The notes under the pieces were generated by a model, which did no database searches, had not been told where the DNA came from, and saw only the letters and a program-made list of their open reading frames with translations. Shown piece after piece: positions 13,637-45,603 of a DNA stretch of 45,603 nucleotides (position 1 is the stretch's first letter; the number at the start of each line of letters is the position of its first letter). This stretch comes from a virus, in the IMG/VR virus record IMGVR_UViG_3300049484_000302, positions 1 to 45,603 of that record, one strand, 5' to 3'. Both the position numbers and the translations under genes were made by a program.

Positions 13637-13673
13637 ATCCTAATCCGTGACAGCAATGCTGTCAACACTGTCA
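13637..13673 (-). promoter_or_regulatory. Promoter with palindromic TGACAGC operator
   Basis: TGACAGC-AAT-GCTGTCA (13648-13664) is a perfect inverted repeat, with a further ACTGTCA at 13667-13673. Minus strand -35 TTGACA (13665-13660), 17 bases, -10 TAGGAT (13642-13637), ATG at 13626 (10 bases between). This is the best-formed member of its class. Confidence 0.65.
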
Positions 13674-29570: not shown

Positions 29571-30248
29571 ATGGGAACGCACGACAGCGATGCTGCCGGT
29601 GAAGGCAGAGACTGGGCGCAGCCTCCGCGCATCGATCAAGAGCTGTACGAAGGCTATCCGACGAACGTGAAGGTCGAGCACGGGTTCGATCCGGTGGACG
29701 GTATGCCGCGCCCCGTTGCACCAGCATCCGTCAAGCTCGCGCAGGCGCCGCTTCTCTTGCCCGAGACGTTCGTCTGCATGGCCGACACGAGCAAGTTCGT
29801 GGTGCGTGACATGGACGGGGAGATCACGCGGACGTTCGAGCCGAGCGAGGTCGAGCGCGCGCCGAACGGGCGGTACCGCGTGCGCACAGGATGGTTGACC
29901 TCGCTGCTTCTCACGAAGTGGACCGAGGTCGAACCGATCCGGCCGGTGTGCAAACACTACGCGCGCCAGCTTTCGGACGTGCAAGACGATCCTGACTTTC
30001 GGTTCGTGGCGCGGCTCTGCACGTTGCGTCGCGCGGAGGACGGAGAGTTTCTCTCGGTGCGCGACTCGCAAGTGTTCGCGTGCGAGCTGCGCAGTCCGCG
30101 CGACCTGAACGGCAGCACCAAGCAGCTCGACGACTTCGACGACAACCAGATCGCCGAGAATCGGAAGAAGCAGGCAGCGAAAGAGGAAGCGGCGTTCGAT
30201 GTCGAGGCGGCGCTCGCAGCAGAAGGCGATGGAGAGACAAGCGAATGA
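29571..30248 (+). CDS. Soluble protein with conserved-looking centre, unknown
   Basis: 225 residues. Central part PETFVCMADTSKFVVRDMDG and CKHYARQLSDVQDDPDFRFV...RLCTLRR looks like a folded domain with several cysteines (CKHY, LCTL, ACELR). The C-terminus is a charged helix (AENRKKQAAKEEAAFDVEAA). No family recognised. First gene of the 29571-33471 group. Confidence 0.65.
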   Translation: MGTHDSDAAGEGRDWAQPPRIDQELYEGYPTNVKVEHGFDPVDGMPRPVAPASVKLAQAPLLLPETFVCMADTSKFVVRDMDGEITRTFEPSEVERAPNGRYRVRTGWLTSLLLTKWTEVEPIRPVCKHYARQLSDVQDDPDFRFVARLCTLRRAEDGEFLSVRDSQVFACELRSPRDLNGSTKQLDDFDDNQIAENRKKQAAKEEAAFDVEAALAAEGDGETSE

Positions 30249-30423: not shown

Positions 30424-30953
30424 TGGTCGATAGGGAAGAAGAAGAGCTGGACAGCGAGATGGACAACGAGGAGCCGGAAGAGGCCGAGGCCGATCCTGGT
30501 CCCGACACACTGGAGCCGATGCTCGACCTCATGGAGGAGATCGAGTCACACCGGACGCGCCTCAAGCTCGTGGTGCAGCAGGGCGTCAGCGACCCGAACG
30601 TGCCAATGGTCGAGCTGGTGGACACAGCGATGAGCCTGATCCAGGACATCGCCAACCGCGTCTACGACAACCTCTACGAGATCCGCCGCTACCTCGTCGA
30701 GACGGTCGAGCCGGTGCTGCTGGGCGGCGGAGCCGAAGGGGAAGGGGCGGACGCGGGAGGCATCGCGTTCGGAGAGTCGGATGCAGCGAGGCTCGCGCGC
30801 GTGCTCACCTGGATGAAGACGGCGCTGAGCACGGGAGAGCGACCGACGGACGAGACGGCGAAGGCACAGGTACTGGCACTGGAGGCAGACGTCGATGCGT
30901 TGCTTGGCCGCATGACGGCCGAGGCTCAGGCGCAGCGCGCTGAAGCACAATGA
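30423..30953 (+). CDS. Acidic helical protein, unknown
   Basis: 176 residues from ATG at 30423 (GTG 3 bases earlier possible). The first 30 residues are nearly all acidic; the rest is helical (VELVDTAMSLIQDIANRVYD, TAKAQVLALEADVDALLGRM). A glycine-rich loop (LLGGGAEGEGADAGG) separates two helical parts. Coupled by ATGA to the large coiled-coil gene; possibly its assembly partner. Confidence 0.6.
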   Translation: MVDREEEELDSEMDNEEPEEAEADPGPDTLEPMLDLMEEIESHRTRLKLVVQQGVSDPNVPMVELVDTAMSLIQDIANRVYDNLYEIRRYLVETVEPVLLGGGAEGEGADAGGIAFGESDAARLARVLTWMKTALSTGERPTDETAKAQVLALEADVDALLGRMTAEAQAQRAEAQ

Positions 30954-33295
30954 CCGAAGCCAGCGAACAGCCAGCTGCCGAGCAGCCCGAGGCAAGCAAC
31001 GGCCAGCAGAAGCCAAAGCGGCCGATGACGGACGCGCAACGGCGCGGCCTGGAGAAGGCTCATCAGGCCAAGCGCGAGAAGCGTGAGGAAAGGATGCGCG
31101 CGCTGGCCGAGAAGCACGCTGCGGCCGAGCTAGAGGAAGAAACGCCGTCGAGTGCAGTGAGCGAAACGGTCGAGCGTTCGGCGCGCACGGCGCACGCCGC
31201 GTTCGTCTCGGAGTTCGTGGCGGACGCCGCCGTGCCTCCCGACGAGTCGAATCTGCACCGCCGCCGCGCGCCGACGATGGAGGCCGAGGTGAGCGACATG
31301 GCCGGCGACCAGCCCGTGCCGCGCAACCTCGACGACCTGATGAGCATGGCGCCCATCGGCGACGGCCAGTATTACATCGCGGTGGAGCGCAAGGCTCCGC
31401 GTCAGTGGTCTGGCGCGCAGTGCGCAGGCATCCTGCGCAAGATCACGCGCTACATGACCACCGAGGAGTTCAAGCGCACCTACGGTGGCGGCGAATACGT
31501 GCTTGTGCTGTACGGACCACCGAAGCGTGGAGGGGTCTACGATCCCGAGACCCGGCGAGTGCGACCGAAGGCGCTGACGCCGGCCGTGCGCTTCACGGTG
31601 CCGCTACACGAGTACGCGCCGATGCTGTTCGATGATCTCGAAGACGAGGACAACGAGGAAGAAGGCGAGGGCGACGTGAGGTACGGAAACGCACCGTGGG
31701 TGAGTGGGCGACCCAAGAGCAACGCGGAGGCCAGGATGTTCGAGGCGTCGCTGGAAGCGGATGAGCGTGGCCAGGCTAGGGCAGAGCAGCGCGAGAAAGA
31801 GCGCGTGGAGCGCGAGCGCCAGCTCCAGGAAGAGGCGGCGCGTCAAGGACTCACCATGGCGCAGTTGCTCGCGCAGCAGAAGGAAAGCGAGCTGCGGCGA
31901 ATCGAAGCAGCGCATCAGCGTGAGATGGAGATCGCCGAACGCCGCCACCAGGAGAACGTGGCACTGCTCCGCACCGAGGCCAACAAGCCAGGAGAGACCC
32001 AGGCGCTCGGCACTGCGCTCAAGGGGATCCTGGAGGTGATGAAGCCCAACGGAGCTGGTGACAAGCAGCTCCAAGATCTGATCAAGAGCCACAACGACGA
32101 GATCGTTCGGCTGCAGGCGCAGATCGCCGACGCCAACGCGCGGGCAGACAACCGCATCCGGGAAGCCGAGCAACGGGCGGACCGCGCCAAGGAAGAGGCA
32201 GAGCGCCGCGCCGACCAACGCATCCAGGACATCGAGCGCCGCGCCGAAGAGCGCATGAAGGAATCGCACGAGCGCTCCGAGAAGCGCGTGCGCGAGGTCG
32301 AGGATGCTGCTCGCCGCGTCGTCGAGGATGCACGCCAGCAGGCCCAGGCCCGGCTCGACGATGAGCGCCGCAACCATGACCGCGACCTGGCCGCCAAAAA
32401 CGACTCGCACAACATGCGCGTCGAGACGCTCAAGGCGAGCTACGACACGCGCCTCGCGGCGAAGGACGAAGAGATCAGCCGCCTGCGCACCGAGTCCGAG
32501 CGCCATCGGCAGGAGGCCGAAGCAAAGGGCGACCTGCCGACGCAAGTGCAGCGGTTCGCGGCGACGGCCGAAGCGCTGGGCTACGCGAAGGACGGCGGCG
32601 GCGGCGGCGACGAAGAGAAGGTGCCGACCGACTGGAAGACGATGCTGCTCGGCCTGGGCGCCGAGCTGGTGAAGCAAGGGCCGGCGATGATCCAGTCTGC
32701 GGGGCAGACCGTGCAGCAGCTCCGCGGCCAAGCACCGCAACAGAGCGCGACGGCCCCGTACATGCAGCCCCAGCAGCGCGCACTGCCTCCCAGGTTGCAC
32801 GCGCGGGACGGCTCGGTGTTCCAGGCGGCATCCCCGGCGTTCGGCACGGAGGATGGCGCGGCCTTCATGGGCGAGACGACGATGCAACGCCCGAAGTACC
32901 CGCCGGGCTTCATGCCGACGCCGCAGGCGCCCGCGCAGGCAGCCCAGCCTGTGCAGGCCACGGTGCAGCAGCCACCGCCTCAGCAGGTGCAGACGGCAGC
33001 GCCGCCGCCGCAAGCTCAGCAACAGCAGGCAGGGGTTCAGGCGAGCGCTGACCAGATCGGCCAGTTCCGTGCGCTCCTGGAGTCGGCGCTCGCGCAGGGC
33101 AAGGACCCGGTGGAGCTGGCGAACGAGATCAAGGCCAGCGTCGGGCCGCAGATGGCCCAGGCCATCGGCCAGAGCGTGACTCCCGAGAGCGTGGTCGCCA
33201 GCCTGCAACAGATGCCTGACGGCGCGCAGAGCCCGCTCATCCGCCGCGAGGGCCAGAAGTTCCTGCGCGAGCTGCACCAGGCGATGCAGCAGTGA
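30950..33295 (+). CDS. Large coiled-coil protein with Gln/Pro-rich region
   Basis: 781 residues, the second largest product here. Basic/acidic N-terminus; a folded segment at ~120-215 (NLDDLMSMAPIGDGQYYIAV, YGGGEYVLVLYGPPKRGG); a long charged coiled coil (~260-530, for example RAEERMKESHERSEKRVREV); then a Pro/Gln-rich stretch (~590-700) and a helical end. No membrane helix. The build fits an elongated scaffold, injection or tether protein. Translationally coupled to the FmdB-like gene (GTGA). Confidence 0.65.
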   Translation: MTEASEQPAAEQPEASNGQQKPKRPMTDAQRRGLEKAHQAKREKREERMRALAEKHAAAELEEETPSSAVSETVERSARTAHAAFVSEFVADAAVPPDESNLHRRRAPTMEAEVSDMAGDQPVPRNLDDLMSMAPIGDGQYYIAVERKAPRQWSGAQCAGILRKITRYMTTEEFKRTYGGGEYVLVLYGPPKRGGVYDPETRRVRPKALTPAVRFTVPLHEYAPMLFDDLEDEDNEEEGEGDVRYGNAPWVSGRPKSNAEARMFEASLEADERGQARAEQREKERVERERQLQEEAARQGLTMAQLLAQQKESELRRIEAAHQREMEIAERRHQENVALLRTEANKPGETQALGTALKGILEVMKPNGAGDKQLQDLIKSHNDEIVRLQAQIADANARADNRIREAEQRADRAKEEAERRADQRIQDIERRAEERMKESHERSEKRVREVEDAARRVVEDARQQAQARLDDERRNHDRDLAAKNDSHNMRVETLKASYDTRLAAKDEEISRLRTESERHRQEAEAKGDLPTQVQRFAATAEALGYAKDGGGGGDEEKVPTDWKTMLLGLGAELVKQGPAMIQSAGQTVQQLRGQAPQQSATAPYMQPQQRALPPRLHARDGSVFQAASPAFGTEDGAAFMGETTMQRPKYPPGFMPTPQAPAQAAQPVQATVQQPPPQQVQTAAPPPQAQQQQAGVQASADQIGQFRALLESALAQGKDPVELANEIKASVGPQMAQAIGQSVTPESVVASLQQMPDGAQSPLIRREGQKFLRELHQAMQQ

Positions 33296-33471: not shown

Positions 33472-34389
33472 TCACGCCGCCACGGTCGCTTCGGGCTCGC
33501 TCAGATAGTCGCATCCAGTCGCCTTGGTGGCGCGCTGTGCGGCGCCACAGACCGTGCACGCCTGGCGCTTCTCGCGTGAGACGCCCTGGACGAAGTCACG
33601 CAGTGCGGGGGCCTTGTAGTGCACGCCGCGCTCGGGGTTCTCGGGCAACGGACCGGGCTGCGCCTTGCGGTAACCCATGATGCTCAGACGGACGCCGCTC
33701 TTCTTCGTCGGCACCGCGAGCTTGCGAGCTTCGAGCGCTTCGATCTGCTCGAAGGTCTCGGGAAGCTCGCGAGCCAGCGTCTGCCAGTCGCGCTTCGAGG
33801 CGTAGGGGCAGAACGTGCACGCGCTCTTGCGGGGAACCGGGAAGCCGGCGTCGCGCACCAGTGACTCGCAGCGGCAGCGACAGAGGCCGCGCTCCATGAG
33901 GGGGAAGCGGTTGAGGCGCAGGCCGTTGCTCTTGCCGGCGTTGGGGTCCTTCTCGGCGCGCGCTTCCTCACCCGACTCGAAGCCGATCCAGACCTCGATG
34001 GGCTGCGTACCGAAGCGGTCGCTGGCCCAGCGCTCGAAGCGCTCCACCTTGGCGACCGTGGTGCAGATGCGGTTCGGGCCGGCGACGGGGATCTGGCCGC
34101 GGGCGTCGAGCCACGCGAAGAGCGAGCGCGCGTTGCGCACCGGGTACATCGTGCTGTCGAGCCACACGAATTCGATGCCGTGCTGAGCGCAGAGGGGCAT
34201 CACGACCTCGCGCATGTGACGGTAGGTCGAGGGCCACTCGCCGGGGTCGGAGCCGTTCGTGGTGGCCGTGCTGTCGCCGGTGTCGCAGAAGATGACGACG
34301 TCGGGCAGCTCGCCACGCTGGATGGCGTCCACGAGCATCGCAAAACTGTCCAGACCGCCACCGTAACTCAGAACCTTCGGGTTTGACAT
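33472..34389 (-). CDS. PP-loop / PAPS-reductase-like ATP pyrophosphatase
   Basis: 305 residues from ATG at 34389. N-terminal PP-loop VLSYGGGLDSFAML (residues 6-19, the SGGxDS type) and DVVIFCDTGD are characteristic of the PAPS reductase/adenine hydrolase superfamily. Conserved cysteines (GLCRCRCESL, SACTFCPYASKRDW) could form an iron-sulphur or zinc site; the end has CTVCGAAQ. Phages carry such enzymes for nucleic-acid or sulphur chemistry, but the specific reaction is not evident. It is the only minus-strand gene between 20 and 45 kb, is convergent with FmdB with no gap, and has a triple repeat upstream. Confidence 0.7.
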   Translation of the reverse strand: MSNPKVLSYGGGLDSFAMLVDAIQRGELPDVVIFCDTGDSTATTNGSDPGEWPSTYRHMREVVMPLCAQHGIEFVWLDSTMYPVRNARSLFAWLDARGQIPVAGPNRICTTVAKVERFERWASDRFGTQPIEVWIGFESGEEARAEKDPNAGKSNGLRLNRFPLMERGLCRCRCESLVRDAGFPVPRKSACTFCPYASKRDWQTLARELPETFEQIEALEARKLAVPTKKSGVRLSIMGYRKAQPGPLPENPERGVHYKAPALRDFVQGVSREKRQACTVCGAAQRATKATGCDYLSEPEATVAA

Positions 34390-34629: not shown

Positions 34630-35166
34630 ATGTACTCCGCACCCCTCGCCCTCTCGCCGCCCCACACGATCCGTCCGTTCCGTGGGCCTGGCACCACCAT
34701 CGCCACCATGACGGAGATGGCGAAGGGCAACCGGGGCGAGCGCTCCGTGCTCGTGCGCTCGGTCACCGAGAGCATCGTGCGCGAGCTGCAGCCGAAGGAC
34801 TACCTCTCTGAGATCCTGGCGGTCCGACACTGGGTCGCAAGCCATGGCCGGTACCTGAACGACCCGCTGGCCACCGAGTTCGTCAAGGACCCGCAGCGCA
34901 TGGTCGAGGAGATCCTGGCGCACGGCAAGACCACCGTGGACTGCGACGAGCTGGCGCTCCTGATCGCAACGATGGCGCGCCAGCTCGGACGCGAAGCGGA
35001 GTTCGTGACGGTCGGGTTCGGGGCGCCGGGCAGGTTCAGTCACGTGTTCGCTCGCGTGCTCGAACCGCGCAGCAACCGCTGGATCGTTTGTGACCCCGTG
35101 GCAGGCCTCGGTGAGACCGCGATGCTTCACCGCGTGAAGACCTACAAGCTCTGGAAGCTCGACTGA
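34630..35166 (+). CDS. Transglutaminase-like cysteine protein
   Basis: 178 residues. The papain-like triad order is visible: Cys105 in TVDCDELALLIATMARQLG, His138 in GRFSHVFARV and Asp155 in WIVCDPVAG, the usual spacing in transglutaminase-like domains of phage and bacterial origin. Such domains act as proteases or crosslinking enzymes. The gene heads the membrane-protein array at 35-45 kb, and the next gene starts 13 bases later, so processing or crosslinking of those proteins is a reasonable guess. No signal peptide. Confidence 0.8.
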   Translation: MYSAPLALSPPHTIRPFRGPGTTIATMTEMAKGNRGERSVLVRSVTESIVRELQPKDYLSEILAVRHWVASHGRYLNDPLATEFVKDPQRMVEEILAHGKTTVDCDELALLIATMARQLGREAEFVTVGFGAPGRFSHVFARVLEPRSNRWIVCDPVAGLGETAMLHRVKTYKLWKLD

Positions 35167-35179
35167 AGAAGGAACAGCA

Positions 35180-35659
35180 ATGTCGTACACGACGCTCGGA
35201 CAAACCATGATGGTCGCCGCCCCGACTCTCTCGACGCGAGCGGCACCGCTGCCGTGCATCACGTCCGCAGAGAAAGCGAAGGCAGAGCTGGACTGTCGGA
35301 TCCCCGACGTGAAGGGGCTCGGCTTCACGTACGGCACGAACACGCGCTTCGCGGGACAGGACGCATGCGCCATTGCCAGGCTGCCGGTCTGCGCGACCGC
35401 TCCGGTGTTCGTTCGTGCCACGCTGCCGCCACCACCACCGGCGACCGTGCGCACGGCGACGCTCGCTCCCATCTCGACGGCGGTTACCAGCAGCATGAGG
35501 TTGCCCCCGAACGTCGTGACCGTGCCGCCGCCGCCGGAGCCGGTGCCCCAGGAGAAGAAAGCGTTCTTCGGCCTGGGCGTCGGCGGCATGCTCGCGGTGC
35601 TCGCCGTGGGAGGTGGAGCCGTCTACTACTTCACGCGCAAGAAAGCGAAGGCCGCATGA
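35180..35659 (+). CDS. Tail-anchored protein with MSY start
   Basis: 159 residues. Starts MSYTTLGQTMM; four cysteines in the middle (PCITSA, LDCRIP, DACAIARLPVCA); two Pro-rich linkers (LPPPPPATV, VPPPPEPVPQ); then a C-terminal membrane helix (~131-151) and basic end RKKAKAA. AAGAAGGAACAGCA gives a good ribosome site. The single C-terminal anchor with a basic tail means the N-terminal part faces away from the cytoplasm only if the tail stays inside. Overlaps the next gene by ATGA. No homologue recognised. Confidence 0.65.
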   Translation: MSYTTLGQTMMVAAPTLSTRAAPLPCITSAEKAKAELDCRIPDVKGLGFTYGTNTRFAGQDACAIARLPVCATAPVFVRATLPPPPPATVRTATLAPISTAVTSSMRLPPNVVTVPPPPEPVPQEKKAFFGLGVGGMLAVLAVGGGAVYYFTRKKAKAA

Positions 35660-36012
35660 GCTACGGTTCTCTTGGTGCCGAGATCTCCTGGTCGAGCAAC
35701 GGAGGGCTCAAAGCCTCCGGCATGCCGATTCCAACCCAGTCGGTGCAGACGACCACGCAGTTGACGGTCGCCAAGCCGACCGTGGTGATGCCTCTCTACC
35801 GCGCGCCAACCCCAGCGCCAGCTCCCGCCCCGGTGTCAACGTCGAGCGCCGCTGTCGCCGCCGCCGCGATGCAGGCGCTTCAGCAACAAAAGGCTGCCGC
35901 CGCGATGCAAGCGCCCCAAAGCTCGCAAGCCTCCATGCTCGGGCGCTATGCTCTTTGGGGAGTGCTCGGCCTGGGCGCGGCGCTCATCATCTACAAGCTC
36001 GCCAAGAAGTGA
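35656..36012 (+). CDS. Tail-anchored protein with MSY start
   Basis: 118 residues from ATG at 35656. MSYGSLGAEISW start, Pro/Ala-rich middle (RAPTPAPAPAPVSTSSAAVA), then a Gln/Ala-rich helix and a C-terminal membrane helix (~98-114) ending IIYKLAKK. Same plan as 35180 and 39390. Coupled by ATGA. Function unknown; probable particle-membrane or envelope protein. Confidence 0.65.
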   Translation: MSYGSLGAEISWSSNGGLKASGMPIPTQSVQTTTQLTVAKPTVVMPLYRAPTPAPAPAPVSTSSAAVAAAAMQALQQQKAAAAMQAPQSSQASMLGRYALWGVLGLGAALIIYKLAKK

Positions 36013-36020
36013 GACCAACC

Positions 36021-36689
36021 ATGCGTCCGAACTATCCGAGATACCCCAGCCAGCCCAACCGCGGTGTGCTTCCGAGCATGAACCAGATGGGTCCGAGCGA
36101 CGCGCTACCTGGCGGTGGCTCGGCCGCAGCGCCGTACTTCAAGAACAAGCTGCTGCTCCAGACGGCGCGCCAGCTCGCCGGCACCAACGAAACGGTGCAG
36201 GACGAGCCCGAGCCGGGCTATGCCTGGAACGAGCTGAAGCTGCTCGCAGAGGCCGACGACGTGAAGTGCGACGGCATCTTCGATCCACCGGGAACGCAGG
36301 CCAACATCTACCCCGACGCCGGCATTCTGGCCGCGCGCTTCGGGCTGCCAGGATACCTGGCGAGAGAGAGGATGTTCGCGGAGAGCGAGGTGATCGACGC
36401 GACCACCGGCAGGCCGACCATCCACGTCAACGCAGGCGCGGTCAGCATGGACTCCGTCGCGCAGATCGCTTTTCTGGAGCGCAACAAGTACGGCCCGATG
36501 AGTCCGGTCGTGCGCGCTGGTGGTGCGCGTGGCACGCCGCCGCAGAGCATCGTCAACGTGCGCGTGAACCCCGAGCCCATCAAGGGCCTGGGCGAAGCTG
36601 GCGGTCTCGGCACGGTGGGCTGGCTCGCCGTGCTTGGAGTCGTCGGGCTTGCCGCGGGAGCGATGTACGCGAAGTGGATGAAGGGCTGA
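36021..36689 (+). CDS. Tail-anchored protein with soluble domain
   Basis: 222 residues from ATG at 36021. A folded domain at ~35-165 (FKNKLLLQTARQLAGTNE, DVKCDGIFDPPGTQANIYP, RFGLPGYLARERMFAESE) is followed by IKGLGEAGGLG and a C-terminal membrane helix (~200-218, ending YAKWMKG). One cysteine. Part of the same array; unassigned. The soluble domain is larger than in most neighbours and could be a receptor, peptidase or structural module. Confidence 0.6.
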   Translation: MRPNYPRYPSQPNRGVLPSMNQMGPSDALPGGGSAAAPYFKNKLLLQTARQLAGTNETVQDEPEPGYAWNELKLLAEADDVKCDGIFDPPGTQANIYPDAGILAARFGLPGYLARERMFAESEVIDATTGRPTIHVNAGAVSMDSVAQIAFLERNKYGPMSPVVRAGGARGTPPQSIVNVRVNPEPIKGLGEAGGLGTVGWLAVLGVVGLAAGAMYAKWMKG

Positions 36690-36692
36690 GCG

Positions 36693-37946
36693 ATGCGCCA
36701 CTACGGTCACAGAGCGAAAGTTCACCAGCCGAACGCTCGCGCCGAAGACTTTCGGCCGGGCGACAAGGTGTTCGTGGACAGCTACACCGGGCTTGTGCCC
36801 GCAGTGGTGGTGAGCGTCACTCCCTCGGAAGAGAATCGCGAGCCGTGGCACCGAAGCCGCAACGCGAACACGGTGGCGTTCCGTGTGACCAAGACGGTGG
36901 GTTCGTACCCGAAGGGCCACGAAGACGTGATCGAAGCACGGCAGGTCGTGAGGCGGGAGTGGGTGAAGAAAACCCCGCTAGGGCAGTATCGCATCGTCGA
37001 GCCGCCGCGCGGAGGTCACCGCCCGAACCCTTTCGACCCGACCAGGGACTATGACGACTACGCTCCTGCTCACGGGCACGCCGAGGACACGTCGCGCCAT
37101 GAGAGAGAGCGAGAAGACGCAGAGTACGAGTACGAGAAGTTCGTTGCGCGGCTCGACGGACCGCCAGAGGACATCCCGAGCTTCGAGACGTGGTGGCTCC
37201 AGTTCCGAAGCAACAGCTCCGTGCTTGGTGGCGGCGAAGATCCGGGAGCCGGCACGCCGATCGCGAACCCGGACGAGGTGGACTTCTTCGAGGACGAAGG
37301 TCCGCTCTGGCAGTTCCAGTTTGGAGCATACGGCAGCACCAACCTCTACGTCTGGGCCGACGGTATGGACTCGGGCTTCGAGATCGCCGTTGAGTGGCTG
37401 GACGACCACGCGCCGGGCCTGCTCACCATGGTCAGCGAAGAGGACTACCAGCAGGCGGCGGAAGAGCTGGGCAAGGTCTGGGATCCGAGTGAGCCCGACG
37501 ACGAGATCATCGAAGCGGCCGAGACCGACATGACCATGATCGGTCACACGACGCTCAAGCACGGCAACGCCGTGGCGAGCTGGGAGTGGCATGCGCACGA
37601 GGTGGAGCGCGGCTCTCCCGAGTGGAACGAAGTCGTCGAGCGCTCGCGTGCGGAGGCCGGGATCGAAGAAGAAGACGAGGGATTCGAGGAGAACGCTTCG
37701 CTGAGCGGGCGCGACCTGGAGCTGCTGTCTGGGTTGGCTGAGCCGCCCATGCGCAGGAGAATCCCAGGACCAGGAGACAGCGTGGTGTATGACCGCAGCT
37801 ACCAGGAGCTGGCTCGACGAGGATTGATTGTCCTGCGCCAGGACCAGCCGGGGATGAGGTCGTTCGCCGATCACTACGTGCTGACTCCGCTGGGCAAGGA
37901 AACGCTGCGTGCGGCACGACTCCCCAGCTGGTCCGTGCGCAGGTAA
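36693..37946 (+). CDS. Large acidic protein with C-terminal winged-helix-like segment
   Basis: 417 residues, no membrane helix. The start has FRPGDKVFVDSYTGLVPAVV, which looks like a small beta-barrel. A Trp-rich middle (ETWWLQFRSNSSV, LWQFQFGAYGSTNLYVWADG) and an acidic stretch follow. The C-terminus (YQELARRGLIVLRQDQPGMR...YVLTPLGKETLRAA) is winged-helix-like. Modular; may link particle proteins and regulation. Unassigned. Confidence 0.6.
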   Translation: MRHYGHRAKVHQPNARAEDFRPGDKVFVDSYTGLVPAVVVSVTPSEENREPWHRSRNANTVAFRVTKTVGSYPKGHEDVIEARQVVRREWVKKTPLGQYRIVEPPRGGHRPNPFDPTRDYDDYAPAHGHAEDTSRHEREREDAEYEYEKFVARLDGPPEDIPSFETWWLQFRSNSSVLGGGEDPGAGTPIANPDEVDFFEDEGPLWQFQFGAYGSTNLYVWADGMDSGFEIAVEWLDDHAPGLLTMVSEEDYQQAAEELGKVWDPSEPDDEIIEAAETDMTMIGHTTLKHGNAVASWEWHAHEVERGSPEWNEVVERSRAEAGIEEEDEGFEENASLSGRDLELLSGLAEPPMRRRIPGPGDSVVYDRSYQELARRGLIVLRQDQPGMRSFADHYVLTPLGKETLRAARLPSWSVRR

Positions 37947-37962
37947 AAGAAGGAACCGGAAC

Positions 37963-38463
37963 ATGCAAGGCAGAACACAGCTCGGTTACCCGCTCTACAT
38001 GGACGGCAAGGAAGTGCACGGACCGGTGACGCTTCATCACGGTCCCGCGCCCATGCAGGGAGTGGGCGAATACTTCTCGGAGCCAATGAGCGGGCTTGGT
38101 CAGACCATGATGCCGCGCATCCCGGCCTACCAGGCGCCGAAGCGCTCCTGGGTCACCAAGGCCGCGGCGTTCTCGCCGCTCATGGGAGCACTGGGTGCAG
38201 CGGCGGACGCGGCGGCGGACTCGGTCGCTGCCGAGCAGACCGGCAACCAGAAGGCAGCGATGACCGCAACGGTGGCGCTCGCGCTCGTCGGAGCCGGGCT
38301 CCTGGTGCGCGGCGTCGCGGGCTACTACGCGGGCAAAGCGATGTCGCCGAGCGCGGCGGACGAAGACAAGTACGCCTGGGGTGGCGTCGCGGCGTCGGTG
38401 CTGCTCGGCACGCTCGGGCTCGGCATCGAGAGCGCAGTGGCGCTGCGCGCGCGGAAGGGATGA
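37963..38463 (+). CDS. Two-helix membrane protein with GLG motif
   Basis: 166 residues from ATG at 37963, ribosome site AAGAAGGAACC. N-terminal soluble part with SEPMSGLGQTMMPRIP, then two Gly/Ala-rich membrane helices (~101-122 and ~139-160) separated by a charged loop, ending ALRARKG. GLGQTMM repeats part of the 35180 start (LGQTMM). Overlaps the next gene (ATGA). Confidence 0.6.
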   Translation: MQGRTQLGYPLYMDGKEVHGPVTLHHGPAPMQGVGEYFSEPMSGLGQTMMPRIPAYQAPKRSWVTKAAAFSPLMGALGAAADAAADSVAAEQTGNQKAAMTATVALALVGAGLLVRGVAGYYAGKAMSPSAADEDKYAWGGVAASVLLGTLGLGIESAVALRARKG

Positions 38464-38840
38464 GCATGACGACCCTCGGAGTTCCCAGCCCGTACACGGT
38501 GCACGTTCACCCGTATCCGACTCGCTTCCACGGCGGGATCTGGACGCGGCCGGTAACGAACAGTCCTCTCATCGCGACGCCGTACGCGGTGTTCAAGCCG
38601 GACGACTTCGCGCCGGCCGCGTACGCGCGCTATCCGTTCAACGGAGTCGGTGAGCTGGACCCGAACATGCGCGCTCTCTGGGGCGTCGCGAGCACGGTCA
38701 GCATGGCGGCCAGCGCCTATCACGGCTACAAGCGCAACCAGAGCGTGGCCTGGGCACTCGCCTGGGGACTGCTGGGCGCGATGTTCCCGGTCATCACGCC
38801 GGTGATCGCGGTGGCGCAGGGATACGGCAAGAGGAAGTGA
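38460..38840 (+). CDS. Two-helix membrane protein
   Basis: 126 residues. Start MSMTTLGVPSPY; aromatic/proline-rich N-terminal part; membrane helices ~71-88 and ~96-119; basic ending GYGKRK. The N-terminal MTTLG resembles MSYTTLG at 35180. Unassigned member of the array. Confidence 0.6.
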   Translation: MSMTTLGVPSPYTVHVHPYPTRFHGGIWTRPVTNSPLIATPYAVFKPDDFAPAAYARYPFNGVGELDPNMRALWGVASTVSMAASAYHGYKRNQSVAWALAWGLLGAMFPVITPVIAVAQGYGKRK

Positions 38841-38933
38841 TTTCCAGCCGCGTGGGGCTTCCGGTGCCACACGACGATTTGGCCCCGATCCAGGAACAGC
38901 GCGCCGGAGTAGGGGCAAAACTTGCAGAAGGCA

Positions 38934-38960
38934 GGCGTCCCGCACCAGCATAGGGACGCC
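38934..38960. promoter_or_regulatory. Hairpin directly before the 38961 start codon
   Basis: Perfect 8-bp stem GGCGTCCC / GGGACGCC (38934-38941, 38953-38960) with an 11-base loop, ending immediately before ATG at 38961. It leaves no free ribosome site, so it may control translation or be an operator over a start-proximal promoter. Confidence 0.5.
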
Positions 38961-39386
38961 ATGCAGTACCAGACGCGACAAGGTGTGTTCGGGCAGATGG
39001 CCCACGGCGGCGGGATCTTCAACAACGCCATTTCGGGACTGGGCTCACTGGGCGCGACGATGCAGACGGGCATCGTGCCTCAGACAGATGTGGCAGCGCT
39101 CACGCAACAGTGCGTCAGCGTGAGCTGTAAGGGGCTCTTCGAGCCGGACGCGGTCGCGGCCTGCCTCCAATCGTGCGCTGCGAAGGCGCAAGCGCAGGCA
39201 GCGGCACCAAAGCCATCCGCTGGCGGGGGCGTCGCGCCAGCTCCACCTCCGGTGTCGCCGACAGCAGCGCAGGCCGCGATGTATCAACCGAGCGGCTTGA
39301 GCCAGAAGACGATCGCACTCGCAGTGGGCGGCGTTGCCGCTGCGGCGTTCGTGTACCTCTACATGACCAAGAAGAAGAAGGGCTGA
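38961..39386 (+). CDS. Tail-anchored protein with twin cysteine pairs
   Basis: 141 residues from ATG at 38961. Contains ISGLGSLGATMQTG, then CVSVSCKGLF...AACLQSC (CxxxxC...CxxxC, spaced like a disulfide-bonded helical hairpin), an Ala/Pro-rich linker (VAPAPPPVSP) and a C-terminal membrane helix (~117-135) ending YMTKKKKG. The cysteine pattern suggests the N-terminal part sits in an oxidising compartment. Confidence 0.65.
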   Translation: MQYQTRQGVFGQMAHGGGIFNNAISGLGSLGATMQTGIVPQTDVAALTQQCVSVSCKGLFEPDAVAACLQSCAAKAQAQAAAPKPSAGGGVAPAPPPVSPTAAQAAMYQPSGLSQKTIALAVGGVAAAAFVYLYMTKKKKG

Positions 39387-39389
39387 GCC

Positions 39390-40004
39390 ATGAGTTACCA
39401 CGCAACCGGCGCGCTCGGAGTCATCAGTCCCGCAGGCCAAGCCTGGAACACGCCGACGTATCAGGCGTGCGCCGGCCACAGCATCCAGATGTGCGGCTAC
39501 TACAACGAGACGCAGGGCTGGACCCCGCAGCAGCTCTCGCACTGCATCGACGCGGAGCAACAGAAGTGCATCGCGATTGCGCAGGCGGCGCTGGCCACCG
39601 TGCTGTCGTCGGCGCAGATCAAAGCCATGCAGGCCGCGATCAACGCGGCGCTTCAGAAGTACGACTACTGTCCGATTGCCGTGGACGGCAATCTCGGACC
39701 GGAGACATGCGGAGCGGCGGCCTGGGCGGCGGGCATCGGTGCGCCGGTGAGCGTTCCTGGAGTTTGCGGCAGTAAGATCCCGATGGGATCTGGCTTTCTG
39801 AAGGACTGCAAGCAAGCGCTCCCGACGCTTCCGGTACTCCCGCCGCCGCCGGTCAAGCCGCCGGTTGTGCCGCCGCCCCCAGTGGCGCCACCGGCGTACA
39901 AGCCGCCCGTGAAGAAGGCCAACATCATGGTCGTCGGCGCGGTGGCCACCATGGTAGCTGGCGGTGGCTACTGGCTGGCGAAGAAGAAGGGCTGGGTCAA
40001 GTGA
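39390..40004 (+). CDS. Tail-anchored peptidoglycan-binding protein
   Basis: 204 residues. MSYHATGALG start; a cysteine-containing helical domain (~25-70); PG_binding_1-like repeat at ~75-112 (IKAMQAAINAALQK...VDGNLGPETCGAAAW, the typical VDGxxGPxT core); a long Pro-rich stalk (LPPPPVKPPVVPPPPVAPP); C-terminal membrane helix (~178-196) with GYWLAKKKG. It could hold a particle or membrane to the host wall. GTGA overlap with the next gene. Confidence 0.75.
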   Translation: MSYHATGALGVISPAGQAWNTPTYQACAGHSIQMCGYYNETQGWTPQQLSHCIDAEQQKCIAIAQAALATVLSSAQIKAMQAAINAALQKYDYCPIAVDGNLGPETCGAAAWAAGIGAPVSVPGVCGSKIPMGSGFLKDCKQALPTLPVLPPPPVKPPVVPPPPVAPPAYKPPVKKANIMVVGAVATMVAGGGYWLAKKKGWVK

Positions 40005-40387
40005 GCTATCACGGGACAGCTCCTGTGAGTTCACAAGATGGTCCGTCTGCGTGGGGTCCATCTGAGTGGAATCCAGTTGCGAGACTACTTTGGAGGATCG
40101 GCCAGCTTCCGACGCCGTCGGCGCTCGGCCTCGGTCTGGGAGCTGTGGGTCTCGGCTATCTGCTCTACCGGTCGCGGAAGAAGATGAAGCGCAACCGCGC
40201 TTCAAAGCGAGGCATCGACGAGGTGGCGCGCTACGTGGCCCTGGCAGCGACCGCGCCGGACCACGACTCGAAGATGAGTTCGCTCGAAGAGGCGCGGCGG
40301 CTCAAGAGGAAGTACCGTGTCAGCCGGAAGGACGCGCCGCGCATCCGTGAGCTGGCCCAGGGCTATGCGAAGGAAATCCGAGGTTGA
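40001..40387 (+). CDS. Small membrane protein with MSY start
   Basis: 128 residues from GTG at 40001 (GTGA overlap). MSYHGTAPVSS start, one membrane helix (~38-56, ALGLGLGAVGLGYLLY), then a very basic region (RSRKKMKRNRASKRG) and a helical charged C-terminus. Here the anchor is near the N-terminus and the basic domain would be inside. Possibly DNA-contacting on the inner face (inference). Confidence 0.6.
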   Translation: MSYHGTAPVSSQDGPSAWGPSEWNPVARLLWRIGQLPTPSALGLGLGAVGLGYLLYRSRKKMKRNRASKRGIDEVARYVALAATAPDHDSKMSSLEEARRLKRKYRVSRKDAPRIRELAQGYAKEIRG

Positions 40388-40390
40388 GCA

Positions 40391-40762
40391 ATGGCGAAAC
40401 GCACCTACGCTGACACGTCCAACTTCAGGGCTCCGTTCGACGCTGCCGTCCTCCAGGGCCTCGGCACCGTCGTGCGGAGCTACCAGGACGTCGCCAACTT
40501 CCGAGCCGGTTATGACGACGGCTACTTCCAGGACAACAGCCTGTTCGGGCTTGGCGCGGTGACCGTGCCGAGCATGAGCGCCGCTCCGGCAGCGCTCCGC
40601 CGCTACCTCGAAGCGGGCGCTCCGATGCCGACGTGGCGCCGCGACCTGGGCGCTGCCACGAACCAGATCCCGCGCTGGGCCTGGGGTCTCATGGCGGTCG
40701 GCGCGCTCGCGCTCGCGTACCGAGGCTTCAAGGCGGCCAAGAAGCCCGCGACTCAAGGGTGA
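40391..40762 (+). CDS. Tail-anchored protein with two GLG motifs
   Basis: 123 residues. VLQGLGTVVRS and LFGLGAVTVPS in the N-terminal part, tyrosine/aspartate-rich spacer (NFRAGYDDGYFQDN), C-terminal membrane helix (~95-113) and KAAKKPATQG end. No known domain. Member of the array. Confidence 0.6.
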   Translation: MAKRTYADTSNFRAPFDAAVLQGLGTVVRSYQDVANFRAGYDDGYFQDNSLFGLGAVTVPSMSAAPAALRRYLEAGAPMPTWRRDLGAATNQIPRWAWGLMAVGALALAYRGFKAAKKPATQG

Positions 40763-40766
40763 GACC

Positions 40767-41669
40767 ATGGGAGCCATCGAGTTCATCGCCAGCCTCGGGA
40801 ACTACCCGCGCCTGCCCAGGCCGACGGCGCAGATGTCTGCGATCGAGAAGACGATGCTTCTGCTCGACGCAAGCAATCATGCGGGAGCGCTGATCAACGC
40901 GAAGCTCCCGAAGCCACCATGGGCCGTGGACGCTCGATGGCACGGACAGGTGCTCGCGTCGCAGCGCAGCCTGTACGAAACGCTCAGCGACAAGGCAGAC
41001 GAGCTGATCGCGGCGATCAAGATGGGCGGCAACGTCCAGCTGAACGTCGGCGCGCTCGAATACTACGACGCGCTCTGGAGCGCCTACCTGGGAGCGAGCT
41101 ACGCGGTGCCGCCGATGGGTCAGGCGCTCGGTCGTGGTGAGACCGGACTGGATGCGGAGTTCGAGCAGCGCCTGGGCGTGCTGCAGGCCGTCGCCGACCA
41201 GCTCAAGAGTGACATGCCGCTCCTGCAGAAGGGCGCGTTCGGCCCGCTGTCCACCGGCATCGACGCCATGTGGAAGAGCGTCTGCGCCGCACCCCAGAAC
41301 AAGGGCTCGTCCGAGTGCGTCCAACGTGGACTCGGCGTCGAGCCCGTAACCATCGCGGTAGGAGTCACGATCGTGCTCAGCATCGCGCTGATCATCGGGC
41401 TCTCGTACTGCGTGATCAAGTTCTACGAGCTGAAGAAGTTCAACGAGCGCTGGCTTGCGCGTTGCACGGGCCAGCAGATGGACGCTGCGACCATGCAGTG
41501 GTGCAACCAGACCGGCGGGCCGCCGCCTGCGTTCGACCCGAACGCACTGGTGAAAACGATCGCGATCGTCGCGGGCATCGGCCTGGGCGCCTACGCATTC
41601 ATCACGTTCCTGCCGCAGATCGTCGGCCGCGTCGCGGCGGCGCGAAAGGTCGGCAAGGAGGCCGGGTGA
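40767..41669 (+). CDS. Membrane protein with helical N-terminal domain
   Basis: 300 residues. A helical soluble domain (~20-185) with YETLSDKADELIAAIKMGG and EFEQRLGVLQAVADQL; membrane helices at ~194-216 and ~262-282 flanking a cysteine-containing loop (ARCTGQQM, QWCNQTGG). The largest predicted multi-pass protein of the array. GTGA overlap with the next gene. Confidence 0.6.
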   Translation: MGAIEFIASLGNYPRLPRPTAQMSAIEKTMLLLDASNHAGALINAKLPKPPWAVDARWHGQVLASQRSLYETLSDKADELIAAIKMGGNVQLNVGALEYYDALWSAYLGASYAVPPMGQALGRGETGLDAEFEQRLGVLQAVADQLKSDMPLLQKGAFGPLSTGIDAMWKSVCAAPQNKGSSECVQRGLGVEPVTIAVGVTIVLSIALIIGLSYCVIKFYELKKFNERWLARCTGQQMDAATMQWCNQTGGPPPAFDPNALVKTIAIVAGIGLGAYAFITFLPQIVGRVAAARKVGKEAG

Positions 41670-41986
41670 TCTACTCTCGATGGCGACCCGAGACAGGCGG
41701 CTACGACTACTATGAAGCCGGCCCTGGTGTGCCCCTCGGCAATGACCTGCCCAGGCCGAGTCTGGGCATGGGCTCCGCCATCGGTGTGGCCAGCGTAGAC
41801 ATTGGGCGCAAGATGCCCTTCGGCGCGAAACACGTCGGCTCGGGCTCGGTTGCCAAGGGCATGGTTACGGCCGTGAGCAGCACGAGCAGCCTCGGGGCAC
41901 TGGCGCTCAGCATCGGCTTCGGCGAGATCGCAATGGTCGTCGGCGGCGCTCTGCTCGGCTGGTGGCTTCGGGGACGCAAGCGATGA
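41666..41986 (+). CDS. Small tail-anchored protein
   Basis: 106 residues from GTG at 41666 (GTGA overlap). Tyrosine-rich start (SRWRPETGGYDYYEAGPG), glycine/serine-rich middle with SLGMGSAIGVASVD, C-terminal membrane helix (~82-100) and WLRGRKR end. ATGA overlap with the next gene. Unassigned. Confidence 0.6.
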   Translation: MIYSRWRPETGGYDYYEAGPGVPLGNDLPRPSLGMGSAIGVASVDIGRKMPFGAKHVGSGSVAKGMVTAVSSTSSLGALALSIGFGEIAMVVGGALLGWWLRGRKR

Positions 41987-43488
41987 ACACCACGCACTTT
42001 GGTTCACGCGACATCGCAGCGTGTGGGGCGCGCGCCTGCAGGGTCCACGCCACTACGGTGGCGGAGATGGTCGATTGTTCCCGTTGCCAGAAAACTGCGG
42101 CTTACAAGGCCGCGATGGCGGCGCGCCCGGCTCCGCGTTCGTCCGAAGCGCTGTCCTGGGTCAAAGGGGACGTCATCCGCACGCCGGGCGGTGACTTGAT
42201 GTTGGTGAGCCGCGACACTTTTTCCAATAGCTGGGTCGGCACATGGCTTGCTGATGGGAAGGTTGCGCGATTGTATGACGATCACCCGTGGGTGCGCGAC
42301 GGCCGTGTCCAGCTGGTGGCTTCTGGGGAAAATCAAGTGAAGTACGGAAGCTCTTTCGAGCCCAACGCCGCCTACGTGGTGAGCGCGACCATCCACGAGC
42401 CCGAGGGACAGGTCACGATCAAGGAACGCTTCTCCTCGCTGGAGAAGGCGCTCGCACGCGCCGTGGAGCTGCGTGACAGCAGTCGGCCCGTGGGAGGACC
42501 GGGACGGCGCAGCGTGATCTTCGTGGACCGGCAACGTCGCGGCAGTGCGCGCGACCTGCACCTGGCACTTTCCGCGCCGTCGCGCACGTGGGGTTTGGAG
42601 ACGGCCAGCAACGAGGCCAGTGAGATGCTGGGCTCGGAGCTGCACCGCCAGGTCGGACCTACCGAAGCGAGCGCGGGACCAGCGATGCCACCTGGCTTCG
42701 AGGGCTTTGGTGACGACGTGTTCGAGGAGAACGCAAAGAAGGCCGTGCGTTACGCGCCTCGCACTCCACCGGTAGGTCAGCGGGAATTGCTGGTGGACCG
42801 CAATGGCACCGAGTGGATCGTGATACCAGACTCGCGACTTGTTGAAGCAGAGGGTGAGCGGTTCACCCGAGAGTGGGTGGAACAGAGACTCGGTCCACTT
42901 CAGCCGAAACTGAGCACCAACCGGCCCCGACGTTACGAGCGCAACAACTCCGCGCTCGCCGCCGCCCGCGAGATCCGCCGCAAGTTCCACGACCAGGATC
43001 CCGAGCACGAGACGCCGGTGCCCTGGGACTGGCCGGCGGAGCTGCAAGAGATCGGAACCTGCGAAGCGGTGATGTACGCCTCCGCAAAGTGGCAACAGAA
43101 CCCGCGCAAGATCATCGACTACAAGCACGTGGCCGAGGGTCCACAGCGCATTCTGGTGCGCCCTGGGTTCGTGCACGATCACAGGGGCAACAAAGCGCTC
43201 AAGGTTGTCGGCCCATATCACGAGCTGAACGACATGCCCGAGGCGTTCGCGGTGCTCGACAAGATCCTCGGTGTCCAGGTCCGGCTCTACGAAGGATCCG
43301 ACGAGAATCCCATGACGCCGAACGGTGACCACGGGTACTACCAGATCGACATTCCGGGTGCCTACTTGGGAGCTGCGCAGCACCCAGAGACCGGCGAGAC
43401 GTTCCTGATCGTCTACACCAACGACGGCGTGCACTGCGTGATCGTGGGACCCAAGCTCGGTGTCGAGAAAGACGGGATAGTCGGATGA
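41983..43488 (+). CDS. Large modular soluble protein, unknown
   Basis: 501 residues from ATG at 41983. N-terminal Cys pattern (AACGARACRVH...VDCSRCQKT) may bind metal. A barrel-like WVKGDVIRTPGGDLMLVSRD segment and, near residue 270, RELLVDRNGTEWIVIPDSRL follow. The C-terminal ~150 residues (GYYQIDIPGAYLGAAQHPET, TFLIVYTNDGVHCVIVG) look like a separate beta-rich domain. The 5' 350 bases look less GC-rich than neighbours by eye. Unassigned; could be a surface or attachment protein. Confidence 0.6.
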   Translation: MNTTHFGSRDIAACGARACRVHATTVAEMVDCSRCQKTAAYKAAMAARPAPRSSEALSWVKGDVIRTPGGDLMLVSRDTFSNSWVGTWLADGKVARLYDDHPWVRDGRVQLVASGENQVKYGSSFEPNAAYVVSATIHEPEGQVTIKERFSSLEKALARAVELRDSSRPVGGPGRRSVIFVDRQRRGSARDLHLALSAPSRTWGLETASNEASEMLGSELHRQVGPTEASAGPAMPPGFEGFGDDVFEENAKKAVRYAPRTPPVGQRELLVDRNGTEWIVIPDSRLVEAEGERFTREWVEQRLGPLQPKLSTNRPRRYERNNSALAAAREIRRKFHDQDPEHETPVPWDWPAELQEIGTCEAVMYASAKWQQNPRKIIDYKHVAEGPQRILVRPGFVHDHRGNKALKVVGPYHELNDMPEAFAVLDKILGVQVRLYEGSDENPMTPNGDHGYYQIDIPGAYLGAAQHPETGETFLIVYTNDGVHCVIVGPKLGVEKDGIVG

Positions 43489-44594
43489 GCTACACGGCAA
43501 TGAACCTGCAGCCCATGGGCAAACAGATCGTGGCCCGTGGCGGATCTACCGATGGGTCCAGCATGCAGGTCTATGCGCAGACCGCAGGACAGATCGGCGG
43601 CGCGGCGATCTGCGCGGCGACTGGTGCGGGTGTGGCGGCCTCGGCGATCTGTGCGCAGGTCGGCGGCGCCATCGTCAAAATCATCGCGGGCAAGATCGGC
43701 TCTCCGGCAACTGCGGGCGCGGCCTACACGCTCTACGACATCTGGAAGACTCAGATCGTGCCGGCAGCCCGCATCGCCCAGGAGGGCTCGCTCGCCATCC
43801 GCGCTTACTTGACGATGCGCGACCAGCTCATCGACAACTTGGCTCAGCAGCTCAAGCCGCTCCAGGATCTCTCCGTCAGTCGCACATGGGCCGATAGCCG
43901 GCTCGCGCAGCTCGGCTTGCCGGGCGCGCCGGTGATGGGCAGCTGGGCGCCGCGGGCTGACCTCTGGCAGGCCTACAAGGACAACGCGGTCTGGAGCAAG
44001 AACCCGATCGGAGCGCCGCCGACCTGGAATTCGTCGCTGGCGACGCCTCTCTACCCGAAGGCCAACTTCTGCAGCACGGGCTCGATCTGGGGCTACGAGA
44101 GCCCCTCGATGAACCAGTTGTCCGCCAGCGTCGGACTGACGTGCGCGGATCTGCTGCTCCTATGGCTCTACCCGATGGGCGCTCCCTCGCCACCTGGTGA
44201 GCCCATCGACTGGGCGATGGTGGGAGCCTGGGAGCTGGCGCAGCGCTTCACTGCTCTGCCGTTCGCGAGCATCCCGCTGCACGGCGCCAGCACACTGCGC
44301 GTCGCTCGTCCTGGCGTGCAGGTGCCGCAGCTCCCATACAAGGCTGCGCAGCCGGTCGTGACGGCTACGGTGACGCCCTCGCAGTACGCCACGCAGCTCG
44401 TGCTCAAGCTGCAAGAGGCTGACGTGCAGCTTCGCAAGGAAGCTCAGCTCAAAATGACGAGCAGCGCTGCCGCTAAGATCATTGCCCTGCAGAAGGCCAA
44501 GCAGGAGCAAAGCCGGAAATTGGGGGCTCTCCTGCTCGTCGCTGGCGCCGCCGCTGCGGCGCTTCTGGTTTACCGTCGTCGTCGCGCGCGCTGA
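43485..44594 (+). CDS. Tail-anchored 369-residue protein with MSY start
   Basis: MSYTAMNLQPMG start; a Gly/Ala-rich hydrophobic stretch (~33-72, with AAICAATGAGVAASAICAQV); a long soluble middle rich in Trp and Pro (TWADSRLAQLGLPGAPVMG, YKDNAVWSKNPIGAPPTWN); a helical segment; C-terminal membrane helix (~345-362) ending in RRRRAR. ATGA overlap with the preceding gene. Function unknown; likely a structural membrane protein. Confidence 0.6.
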   Translation: MSYTAMNLQPMGKQIVARGGSTDGSSMQVYAQTAGQIGGAAICAATGAGVAASAICAQVGGAIVKIIAGKIGSPATAGAAYTLYDIWKTQIVPAARIAQEGSLAIRAYLTMRDQLIDNLAQQLKPLQDLSVSRTWADSRLAQLGLPGAPVMGSWAPRADLWQAYKDNAVWSKNPIGAPPTWNSSLATPLYPKANFCSTGSIWGYESPSMNQLSASVGLTCADLLLLWLYPMGAPSPPGEPIDWAMVGAWELAQRFTALPFASIPLHGASTLRVARPGVQVPQLPYKAAQPVVTATVTPSQYATQLVLKLQEADVQLRKEAQLKMTSSAAAKIIALQKAKQEQSRKLGALLLVAGAAAAALLVYRRRRAR

Positions 44595-44597
44595 ATT

Positions 44598-44643
44598 TTG
44601 CGTTTGCCGAGACTCACGCGCTAGTCTGCTCACTCGTAGGAGG
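44598..44643 (+). promoter_or_regulatory. Promoter and strong ribosome site for the 44652 gene
   Basis: -35 TTGCGT (44598-44603), 18 bases, -10 TAGTCT (44622-44627), then AGGAGG (44638-44643) 8 bases before ATG at 44652. Unlike most promoters here it keeps a normal leader with a full Shine-Dalgarno, suggesting high expression. Confidence 0.55.
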
Positions 44644-44651
44644 CACACAAG

Positions 44652-44909
44652 ATGTACGCAGGTTTAGGAGCCGTCAACCCAACCATGCTCAAGGCAGTGC
44701 GTGACGCCATGGTGCAGCAAATGTGCATCGACGCGGGGCGCCCTGGAGACACTGCGTGCGCCGCTCAAGCGTCAGCCATGTTCGGAACGAACAAGAGCCG
44801 AGACGAGATCGTGGCAGCCCTGCGCTCCAACACAGGAACGAAGTGGCTCCTCTGGGGAGCGGTGGGCGCCGTGGTGCTCGTCGGTGGCGCCTGGTACCTC
44901 ACGAGGTAA
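44652..44909 (+). CDS. Small tail-anchored protein, probably abundant
   Basis: 85 residues. MYAGLGAVNPTM start with the GLG motif, a helical part with two cysteines (QQMCIDAGRPGDTACAAQAS), and a C-terminal membrane helix (~64-83) ending YLTR. Own promoter, perfect AGGAGG and own terminator: a monocistronic unit. Size, single helix and expression signals suit a major membrane or coat component (inference). Confidence 0.65.
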   Translation: MYAGLGAVNPTMLKAVRDAMVQQMCIDAGRPGDTACAAQASAMFGTNKSRDEIVAALRSNTGTKWLLWGAVGAVVLVGGAWYLTR

Positions 44910-45145: not shown

Positions 45146-45603
45146 ATGGCACGAACGGTCGGCAAAGCGTTTCAGATCTCCAAGAAGGCGGTCAAGAACT
45201 ACGGCTACGCGCGGCCGGGAATGACGCCGAACTCGCCGCCGCCGGTGACTGCCATTGCGGCCGTCAACGGCCGAGGAGCGTACGCGAAGCGCTCCGCGCG
45301 CGCCGCGATGCAAGGGCTCTCGACGAGCGCCCGCGCATCACACGCGCGCAACCTCACCCAGGCACAGCGTCAAGCCTTTGCCCGGCGCATGCGCCAGGCC
45401 AAGGCAACGAAGCATCGCTCGAACACAGACACGAGTTTCCCGAGATCCAGTCGCTACAGCATGGTGCGACCGGCTGGCTCGGGACGGACTCCGGCGCGTC
45501 CGCGCCCGGCGTCAGCAGCAACCGGAGGAAGAAGCATGAGACCGAACGTCACGGCTGCGCAGCGTCGAGCTGCGCTGGCCAACCTGAAGAAGGCGCGCGC
45601 CGC
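45146..45603 (+). CDS. Very basic protein, cut by right edge
   Basis: 152 codons and open at the edge. ATG at 45146; an in-frame GTG at 45134 is possible. Arg, Lys, Ala and Ser dominate (AFQISKKAVKNYGYARPG, ARRMRQAKATKHR, AAQRRAALANLKKARA), with no hydrophobic segment. Likely binds nucleic acid, for example as a DNA-condensing particle protein. The tail TAAQRRAALANLKKAR looks like the start of a helix-forming basic repeat. First gene after a terminator and a TGCAC-class promoter. Confidence 0.6.
   Translation, partial: MARTVGKAFQISKKAVKNYGYARPGMTPNSPPPVTAIAAVNGRGAYAKRSARAAMQGLSTSARASHARNLTQAQRQAFARRMRQAKATKHRSNTDTSFPRSSRYSMVRPAGSGRTPARPRPASAATGGRSMRPNVTAAQRRAALANLKKARA

Follow-up and report, generated by a model that had tools for sequence, protein, structure and literature searches.

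In the 45,603-base IMG/VR virus record IMGVR_UViG_3300049484_000302 (the window, which is the whole record and has no end repeats), a tight, rightward operon at 34630-44909 encodes an array of small proteins that end in a C-terminal membrane helix. We read this block as encoding the virion membrane proteins of a large phage that has no tail and carries a lipid membrane inside its particle, and put the probability of this reading at about 0.8. The original prediction had been of a particle-membrane proteome of an internal-membrane virus. It is supported by the homology of the operon's first product to gp34, a structural protein of an isolated membrane phage (Salisaeta icosahedral phage 1, SSIP-1), whose structural module also holds tail-anchored proteins, some of them annotated as structural. 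Moreover, in related contigs the tail-anchored genes cluster around three conserved coat-like genes (candidates a, b and c, here the trio), candidate b models as a jelly roll, and no head or tail gene of a tailed phage was found.

The window covers only part, about one third, of a larger genome. Via the first gene of the operon (34630) we reached two IMG/VR relatives of ~125 kb (G001 and G002), and the window genes are collinear with G002: window 1.5-6 kb corresponds to G002 114-122 kb, 10-15 kb to 1-5.5 kb and 16-45.6 kb to 15-45 kb. Since the window gene order crosses the ends of G002, the G002 map is circular or circularly permuted. The right end of the window cuts a very basic protein, which is complete in relatives, and there the trio a-b-c follows directly. 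Nine contigs of 116-160 kb were fetched and their genes clustered, making ten genomes with the window. Blocks of this kind flank the genes for the coat candidates in ~20 uncultured relatives, whose genomes measure roughly 100-180 kb. Scans for close relatives using 5186-6016 and 36021-36689 gave no matches. Host signals from metagenome-assembled genomes (MAGs) conflict, with one MAG each from Methanomicrobiales, Pseudomonadota, Planctomycetota and Deltaproteobacteria, and we therefore claim no host.

The tail-anchored array

Gene calling by codon usage gave 16 genes in 34630-44909 and 50 elsewhere in the window. Tail anchors were scored by a strict rule that takes a mean Kyte-Doolittle hydropathy of at least 1.6 over 19 residues, a helix preceded by at least 40 residues and ending no more than 20 residues from the C-terminus, and a net positive tail. 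By this rule 11 of the 16 operon genes (given as passing in the list below) encode tail-anchored proteins compared with none of the 50 other window genes (Fisher p=4e-9), confirming the array that had been described from the letters of the window. The same rule selected 0/69 annotated proteins in lambda, 1/84 in Mx8, 1/26 in PRD1 and 2/34 in P23-77; in the genomes of the group it selected 7-27 proteins each. The basic tails of the operon anchors carry a charge of +1 to +5. Seven of the eight genes that were named at the outset pass, the exception being 40391, whose weaker helix falls just under the cut. The number then given, "at least eight", was if anything too low, as 37963, 38460, 40767 and 41666 had not been listed and pass too. 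Several genes of the operon are joined by 4-base stop-start overlaps. Its genes are:

34630-35166 (+), transglutaminase-like cysteine enzyme, 178 residues, first operon gene; matches Pfam Transglut_core; homologue of SSIP-1 gp34; orthologues in 10/10 genomes
35180-35659 (+), tail-anchored protein, 159 residues, MSY start, Pro-rich stalk; passes; homologue in G002
35656-36012 (+), tail-anchored protein, 118 residues, MSY start; passes
36021-36689 (+), tail-anchored protein, 222 residues; passes; orthologues in 7 relatives, C-terminal helix in 8/8
36693-37946 (+), soluble protein, 417 residues, without known domain; homologues in 3 relatives
37963-38463 (+), two-helix protein with C-terminal anchor, 166 residues; passes; cluster of 6 genomes, all with the C-terminal helix
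38460-38840 (+), tail-anchored protein, 126 residues, the most conserved membrane protein; passes; orthologues in 10/10 genomes, C-terminal helix in 19/19 members
38922-39386 (+), tail-anchored protein, 154 residues or shorter (from the ATG at 38961 chosen in the original prediction), Pro-rich stalk; passes
39390-40004 (+), tail-anchored protein, 204 residues, MSY start, stalk with 40% Pro; passes; weak PG_binding_3 match
40001-40387 (+), small protein with an internal hydrophobic stretch; gene call with a GTG start at 40001, or a start at 40145
40391-40762 (+), small protein, 123 residues, weak C-terminal helix with hydropathy under the strict cut; conserved in 8 genomes
40767-41669 (+), two-helix protein with C-terminal anchor, 300 residues; passes
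41666-41986 (+), tail-anchored protein, 106 residues; passes; 7 genomes
42058-43488 (+), soluble core protein, 476 residues as called, the conserved part being about the last 190; orthologues in 10/10 genomes
43485-44594 (+), tail-anchored protein, 369 residues, MSY start, RRRRAR tail; passes; 69% identity to G002
44652-44909 (+), tail-anchored protein, 85 residues; passes

Two neighbouring genes lie on the same strand:

30950-33295 (+), long core protein of 781 residues encoded ahead of the operon, charged, coiled-coil-like by eye; orthologues in 10/10 genomes
45146-45603 (+), N-terminal part of a protein rich in Lys and Arg, truncated where the contig stops; 52-56% identical to its G001 and G002 counterparts

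The homologues of 45146 in relatives are 593-837 residues long, consist of a basic part followed by two membrane helices and adjoin the trio; in G001 and G002, Lys and Arg make up ~31-36% of the first 60% of the protein.

Several features recur across the array. The shared MSY start, which had been pointed out before, is over-represented in the tail-anchored proteins of the group (18/158 compared with 35/1600; p=2e-7). Pro-rich stalks, also part of the earlier description, are found in 35180, 36021, 38922 and 39390, where Pro makes up 15-40% of the 40 residues preceding the helix; several other proteins lack them. The peptidoglycan-binding domain that had been assigned to one array protein reduces to a sub-threshold match of 39390 to Pfam PG_binding_3 (E=0.011; 16.4 bits, below the cut-off of 24.6), and two array proteins of relatives have similarly weak PG_binding_1 matches. 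In the soluble parts of the tail-anchored proteins (one representative per cluster) the tripeptide GLG occurs 44 times compared with 9.7 in shuffles, a ~4.5-fold excess, and neither GAG nor GVG is enriched there. GLG may serve for docking or for processing, and we hypothesise that the transglutaminase-like enzyme could be the partner. In relatives, a longer, GLGEYF-like motif is found again in the basic membrane protein and in other array proteins.

Three coat-like genes beside the array

In the nine contigs, tail-anchored genes make up 93 of the 290 that lie no more than 12 kb from candidate a, compared with 33 of the 1079 at distances above 25 kb (p=3e-41, a nominal value because genes of related genomes are not independent). 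The trio members measure ~250 (a), ~316 (b) and ~291 (c) residues. All three are present in 9/9 clustered contigs, and the trio was recovered in most loci fetched as well as from four MAG-binned contigs. Candidate a was found in 27 viral contigs, many of them larger than 100 kb, and candidate b in 18/18 related viral contigs searched. Candidate a has no match among 50,697 phage records, neither a nor b has a PHROG match, and by profile comparison a, b and c are not mutually related.

Using 26-27 sequences, we built AlphaFold2 models of candidates a and b. In the model of b, an N-terminal helix is followed by a single jelly roll at residues 76-309. Its best matches in BFVD, which holds predicted viral proteins, are of the single-jelly-roll capsid type, namely capsids of circoviruses and other CRESS viruses and iridovirus proteins (best E=7.6e-4, probability 0.99), and VP4 of Sulfolobus polyhedral virus 1 (SPV1) is matched at E=5e-3 (probability 0.95). 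Against the PDB, candidate b matches, at moderate scores, single-jelly-roll capsid proteins from membrane-containing viruses, namely SPV1 (Z 8.2; 140 residues, 3.9 A), SH1 (Z 7.7), HHIV-2 (Z 6.9) and P23-77 VP17 (Z 6.9). Candidate a models as a beta-rich protein with weak matches, SPV1 being first in Foldseek. From these models we regard candidates a and b as probable, though not proven, jelly-roll coat proteins.

One gene of the window itself, 5186-6016 (-), was also considered as a coat protein gene; its 276-residue product shows conservation in 6 relatives. As conservation is stronger in the trio, this product was given up in that role and is retained only as a candidate minor capsid, vertex or spike protein.

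Comparison with membrane viruses and tailed phages

The product of 34630 matches Pfam Transglut_core above the cut-off (E=2.2e-6). In a tblastn search of the 50,697 phage records its only match was SSIP-1 gp34, and a profile of the 34630 family built without SSIP-1 matches gp34 at E=7.8e-15. The Cys-His-Asp catalytic triad is intact in 11/11 sequences (the window, nine relatives and gp34). SSIP-1 is a tailless icosahedral phage with an internal membrane and two major coat protein types (PMC6356626, PMC4958249), and it is the closest precedent for the array. In both, a transglutaminase-like structural protein opens the structural module and tail-anchored proteins lie inside that module. Under a looser hydropathy cut a C-terminal helix is found in SSIP-1 gp34, gp41 and gp53, all annotated as structural, and in ORFs 39, 50, 52 and 54 too. 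The two differ in size (43.8 kb for SSIP-1 compared with contigs up to ~180 kb here, the new group being ~3 times larger), in the C-terminal helix, which in SSIP-1 sits on the enzyme itself, and in gp40, an SSIP-1 protein with a P-loop for which no counterpart was identified in the group. Nor do the coat candidates resemble SSIP-1 coat proteins in sequence, trio profiles giving E values of at least 0.11 against six-frame SSIP-1. Both carry a PAPS-reductase-like gene; that of the window (33472-34389, -) resembles SSIP-1 ORF 25, and P23-77 and lambda also have annotated PAPS reductases.

Alternatively, the array proteins could act on the host envelope: a phage or plasmid would produce them early as effectors that enter the inner membrane, where they prevent superinfection, reshape the envelope or help lysis, and they would not be part of the particle. 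Small single-helix proteins are indeed common among phage accessory genes, and the weak peptidoglycan-binding match of 39390 would suit such a role. We consider it improbable, since the array shares an operon with the homologue of an SSIP-1 structural protein, array genes flank the trio in relatives, several are core genes, and gp34, gp41 and gp53 combine a structural annotation with C-terminal anchors. Candidate b, moreover, has no match among 72,556 plasmid records.

Two other kinds of virus resemble the group in part. Members of the Helvetiavirae, the vertical single-jelly-roll viruses (P23-77, SH1, HHIV-2, HCIV-1), have more than one coat protein, as proposed for the group, of a fold like that modelled for candidate b, and their lattice is organised by membrane proteins anchored at the C-terminus (PMC6414509). 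They differ in having genomes of ~17-31 kb, few anchors by the strict rule and a packaging ATPase, which was not found here, and they share no sequence similarity with the group. SPV1 (Portogloboviridae) has two single-jelly-roll capsid proteins, an internal membrane and subcapsomer proteins arrayed in the space that separates this membrane from the shell (PMC8459092), and is among the top structural matches of candidates a and b; here the differences are a 20 kb genome, an archaeal host and the lack of any established sequence similarity.

The genome size and replication genes of the group are like those of tailed phages, and were the virus a tailed phage whose head and tail genes have diverged strongly, the anchors would form an unusual envelope or injection apparatus. 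Also in favour is one G002 protein (112995-114260, -; locus L011) with a strong match (E=4.5e-95) to a family of virion structural proteins from cyanophages and phage HMO-2011. This gene is present in 2/9 contigs only and shared with cyanophages; it may encode an exchanged adhesin and was set aside as a sign of a tailed particle. Among the core genes of the nine relatives none is recognisable as a terminase, portal, HK97 capsid, tape-measure or tail gene, and a protein-by-protein PHROG scan of the G002 structural region found no recognisable tail gene. Across 89 G002 proteins the scan found replication, glycosylation, endolysin and ParB-like families, and among the families listed there was no terminase, portal, HK97 capsid, tape-measure or tail-tube. 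With a coat candidate (b) that models as a jelly roll, we consider a diverged tailed phage improbable too.

Some further genes were observed in the window and in G002. An alpha/beta hydrolase at 13671-14819 (-), with 69% identity to G002, is weakly matched by phrog_102, a family of phage endolysins (E=7e-5), and a second and shorter relative lies at G002 93350. An ARAGORN tRNA-Glu call at 29880-29967 (+) falls inside a conserved gene on the same strand (29571-30248) and is probably a false positive. Core genes of the group at G002 53020, 55536 and 57070 encode a J-domain protein and two glycosyltransferase-like proteins, the latter suggesting glycosylated particles or changes to the host surface.

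A proposed particle and its significance

We propose that the small proteins would insert via their C-terminal helix into the host cytoplasmic membrane, and that their N-terminal parts, often on Pro-rich stalks, would bind the inside of a single-jelly-roll coat shell encoded just downstream. A patch of membrane could thus be drawn in and lined by the capsid. In this topology the basic C-terminal tails, with the very basic 45146 membrane protein, would face and hold the packaged DNA, and the transglutaminase-like protein may act as a virion enzyme that crosslinks or trims array proteins. The best precedent for this mechanism comes from HCIV-1 and HHIV-2. There VP13, which has a C-terminal transmembrane helix, assembles into homopentamers beneath the pentons, and GPS-II, a membrane-proximal protein that helps position coat proteins on the vesicle, is tentatively assigned to VP10, whose C-terminal helix is likely (PMC6414509). 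By analogy, we propose that the array proteins play a role of the VP13/VP10 type, spread over many more proteins.

A tailless particle may also use its membrane proteins mainly for genome delivery, through a membrane tube as in PRD1, rather than for anchoring the capsid. PRD1 employs small membrane proteins to deliver its DNA, as its annotation and the literature show (PMC3782422). The 7-27 different anchors per genome and the Pro-rich stalks fit multiple capsid tethers, and nothing found points to delivery in particular; we regard a mainly delivering role as unlikely.

Several observations weigh against a virion-membrane gene set of an internal-membrane phage. The lipid, the lack of a tail and the virion location of the array proteins are inferred. 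Only three SSIP-1 proteins pass the strict tail-anchor rule, and a more distant branch of the group (L042-L046, L049, L050) has few tail-anchored genes by that rule. The models of candidates a and b are of moderate quality only (pLDDT 65-66; pTM 0.55 and 0.67), candidate a lacks a significant structural match, and the Z score of candidate b with PHM, an enzyme of jelly-roll-like fold that is not viral, is as high (8.3) as those of the viral matches. The trio has no sequence similarity to the coat proteins of SSIP-1, P23-77, PRD1, PM2 or SH1. No packaging ATPase was identified: PF01580 (FtsK/HerA-type) gave only sub-threshold P-loop fragments, and the P-loop gene clusters of the group are DnaB-like, DnaC-like and one AAA ATPase cluster. 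PF05065 (HK97 capsid) had no match in 19 virus records and also missed the tailed controls lambda and Mx8, and phrog_2, PF04860 and PF03237 (terminase, portal) had no match, with positive controls weak or missed. Because these controls were missed or barely seen, the terminase, portal and HK97 negatives are soft taken alone.

On this reading the array would belong to a known kind, the internal-membrane tailless phages, and be unusual in its genome size, its three-gene coat cassette and its much expanded tail-anchored set. The prokaryotic membrane viruses used for comparison have genomes of 10-44 kb, all smaller than the ~110-180 kb of the group. A literature search, of incomplete coverage, found no description of these viruses. 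We consider it somewhat more likely than not that they form an undescribed group of tailless internal-membrane bacterial viruses of ~110-180 kb, with a coat cassette of three genes and as many as ~27 different tail-anchored virion proteins that share the GLG motif; this motif may be where the conserved transglutaminase-like virion enzyme recognises them.

The tailless membrane phages so far isolated are small, and it is easy to assume that a large phage genome from a metagenome belongs to a tailed phage. If our reading is correct, the jelly-roll and internal-membrane architecture would scale to genomes of 110-180 kb in a widespread group of bacterial phages, which would account for the missing head and tail annotations on such contigs. 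SSIP-1, so far an orphan, would be joined to a large natural group, for which the trio and the transglutaminase-like enzyme provide concrete markers by which its members can be found and tested.

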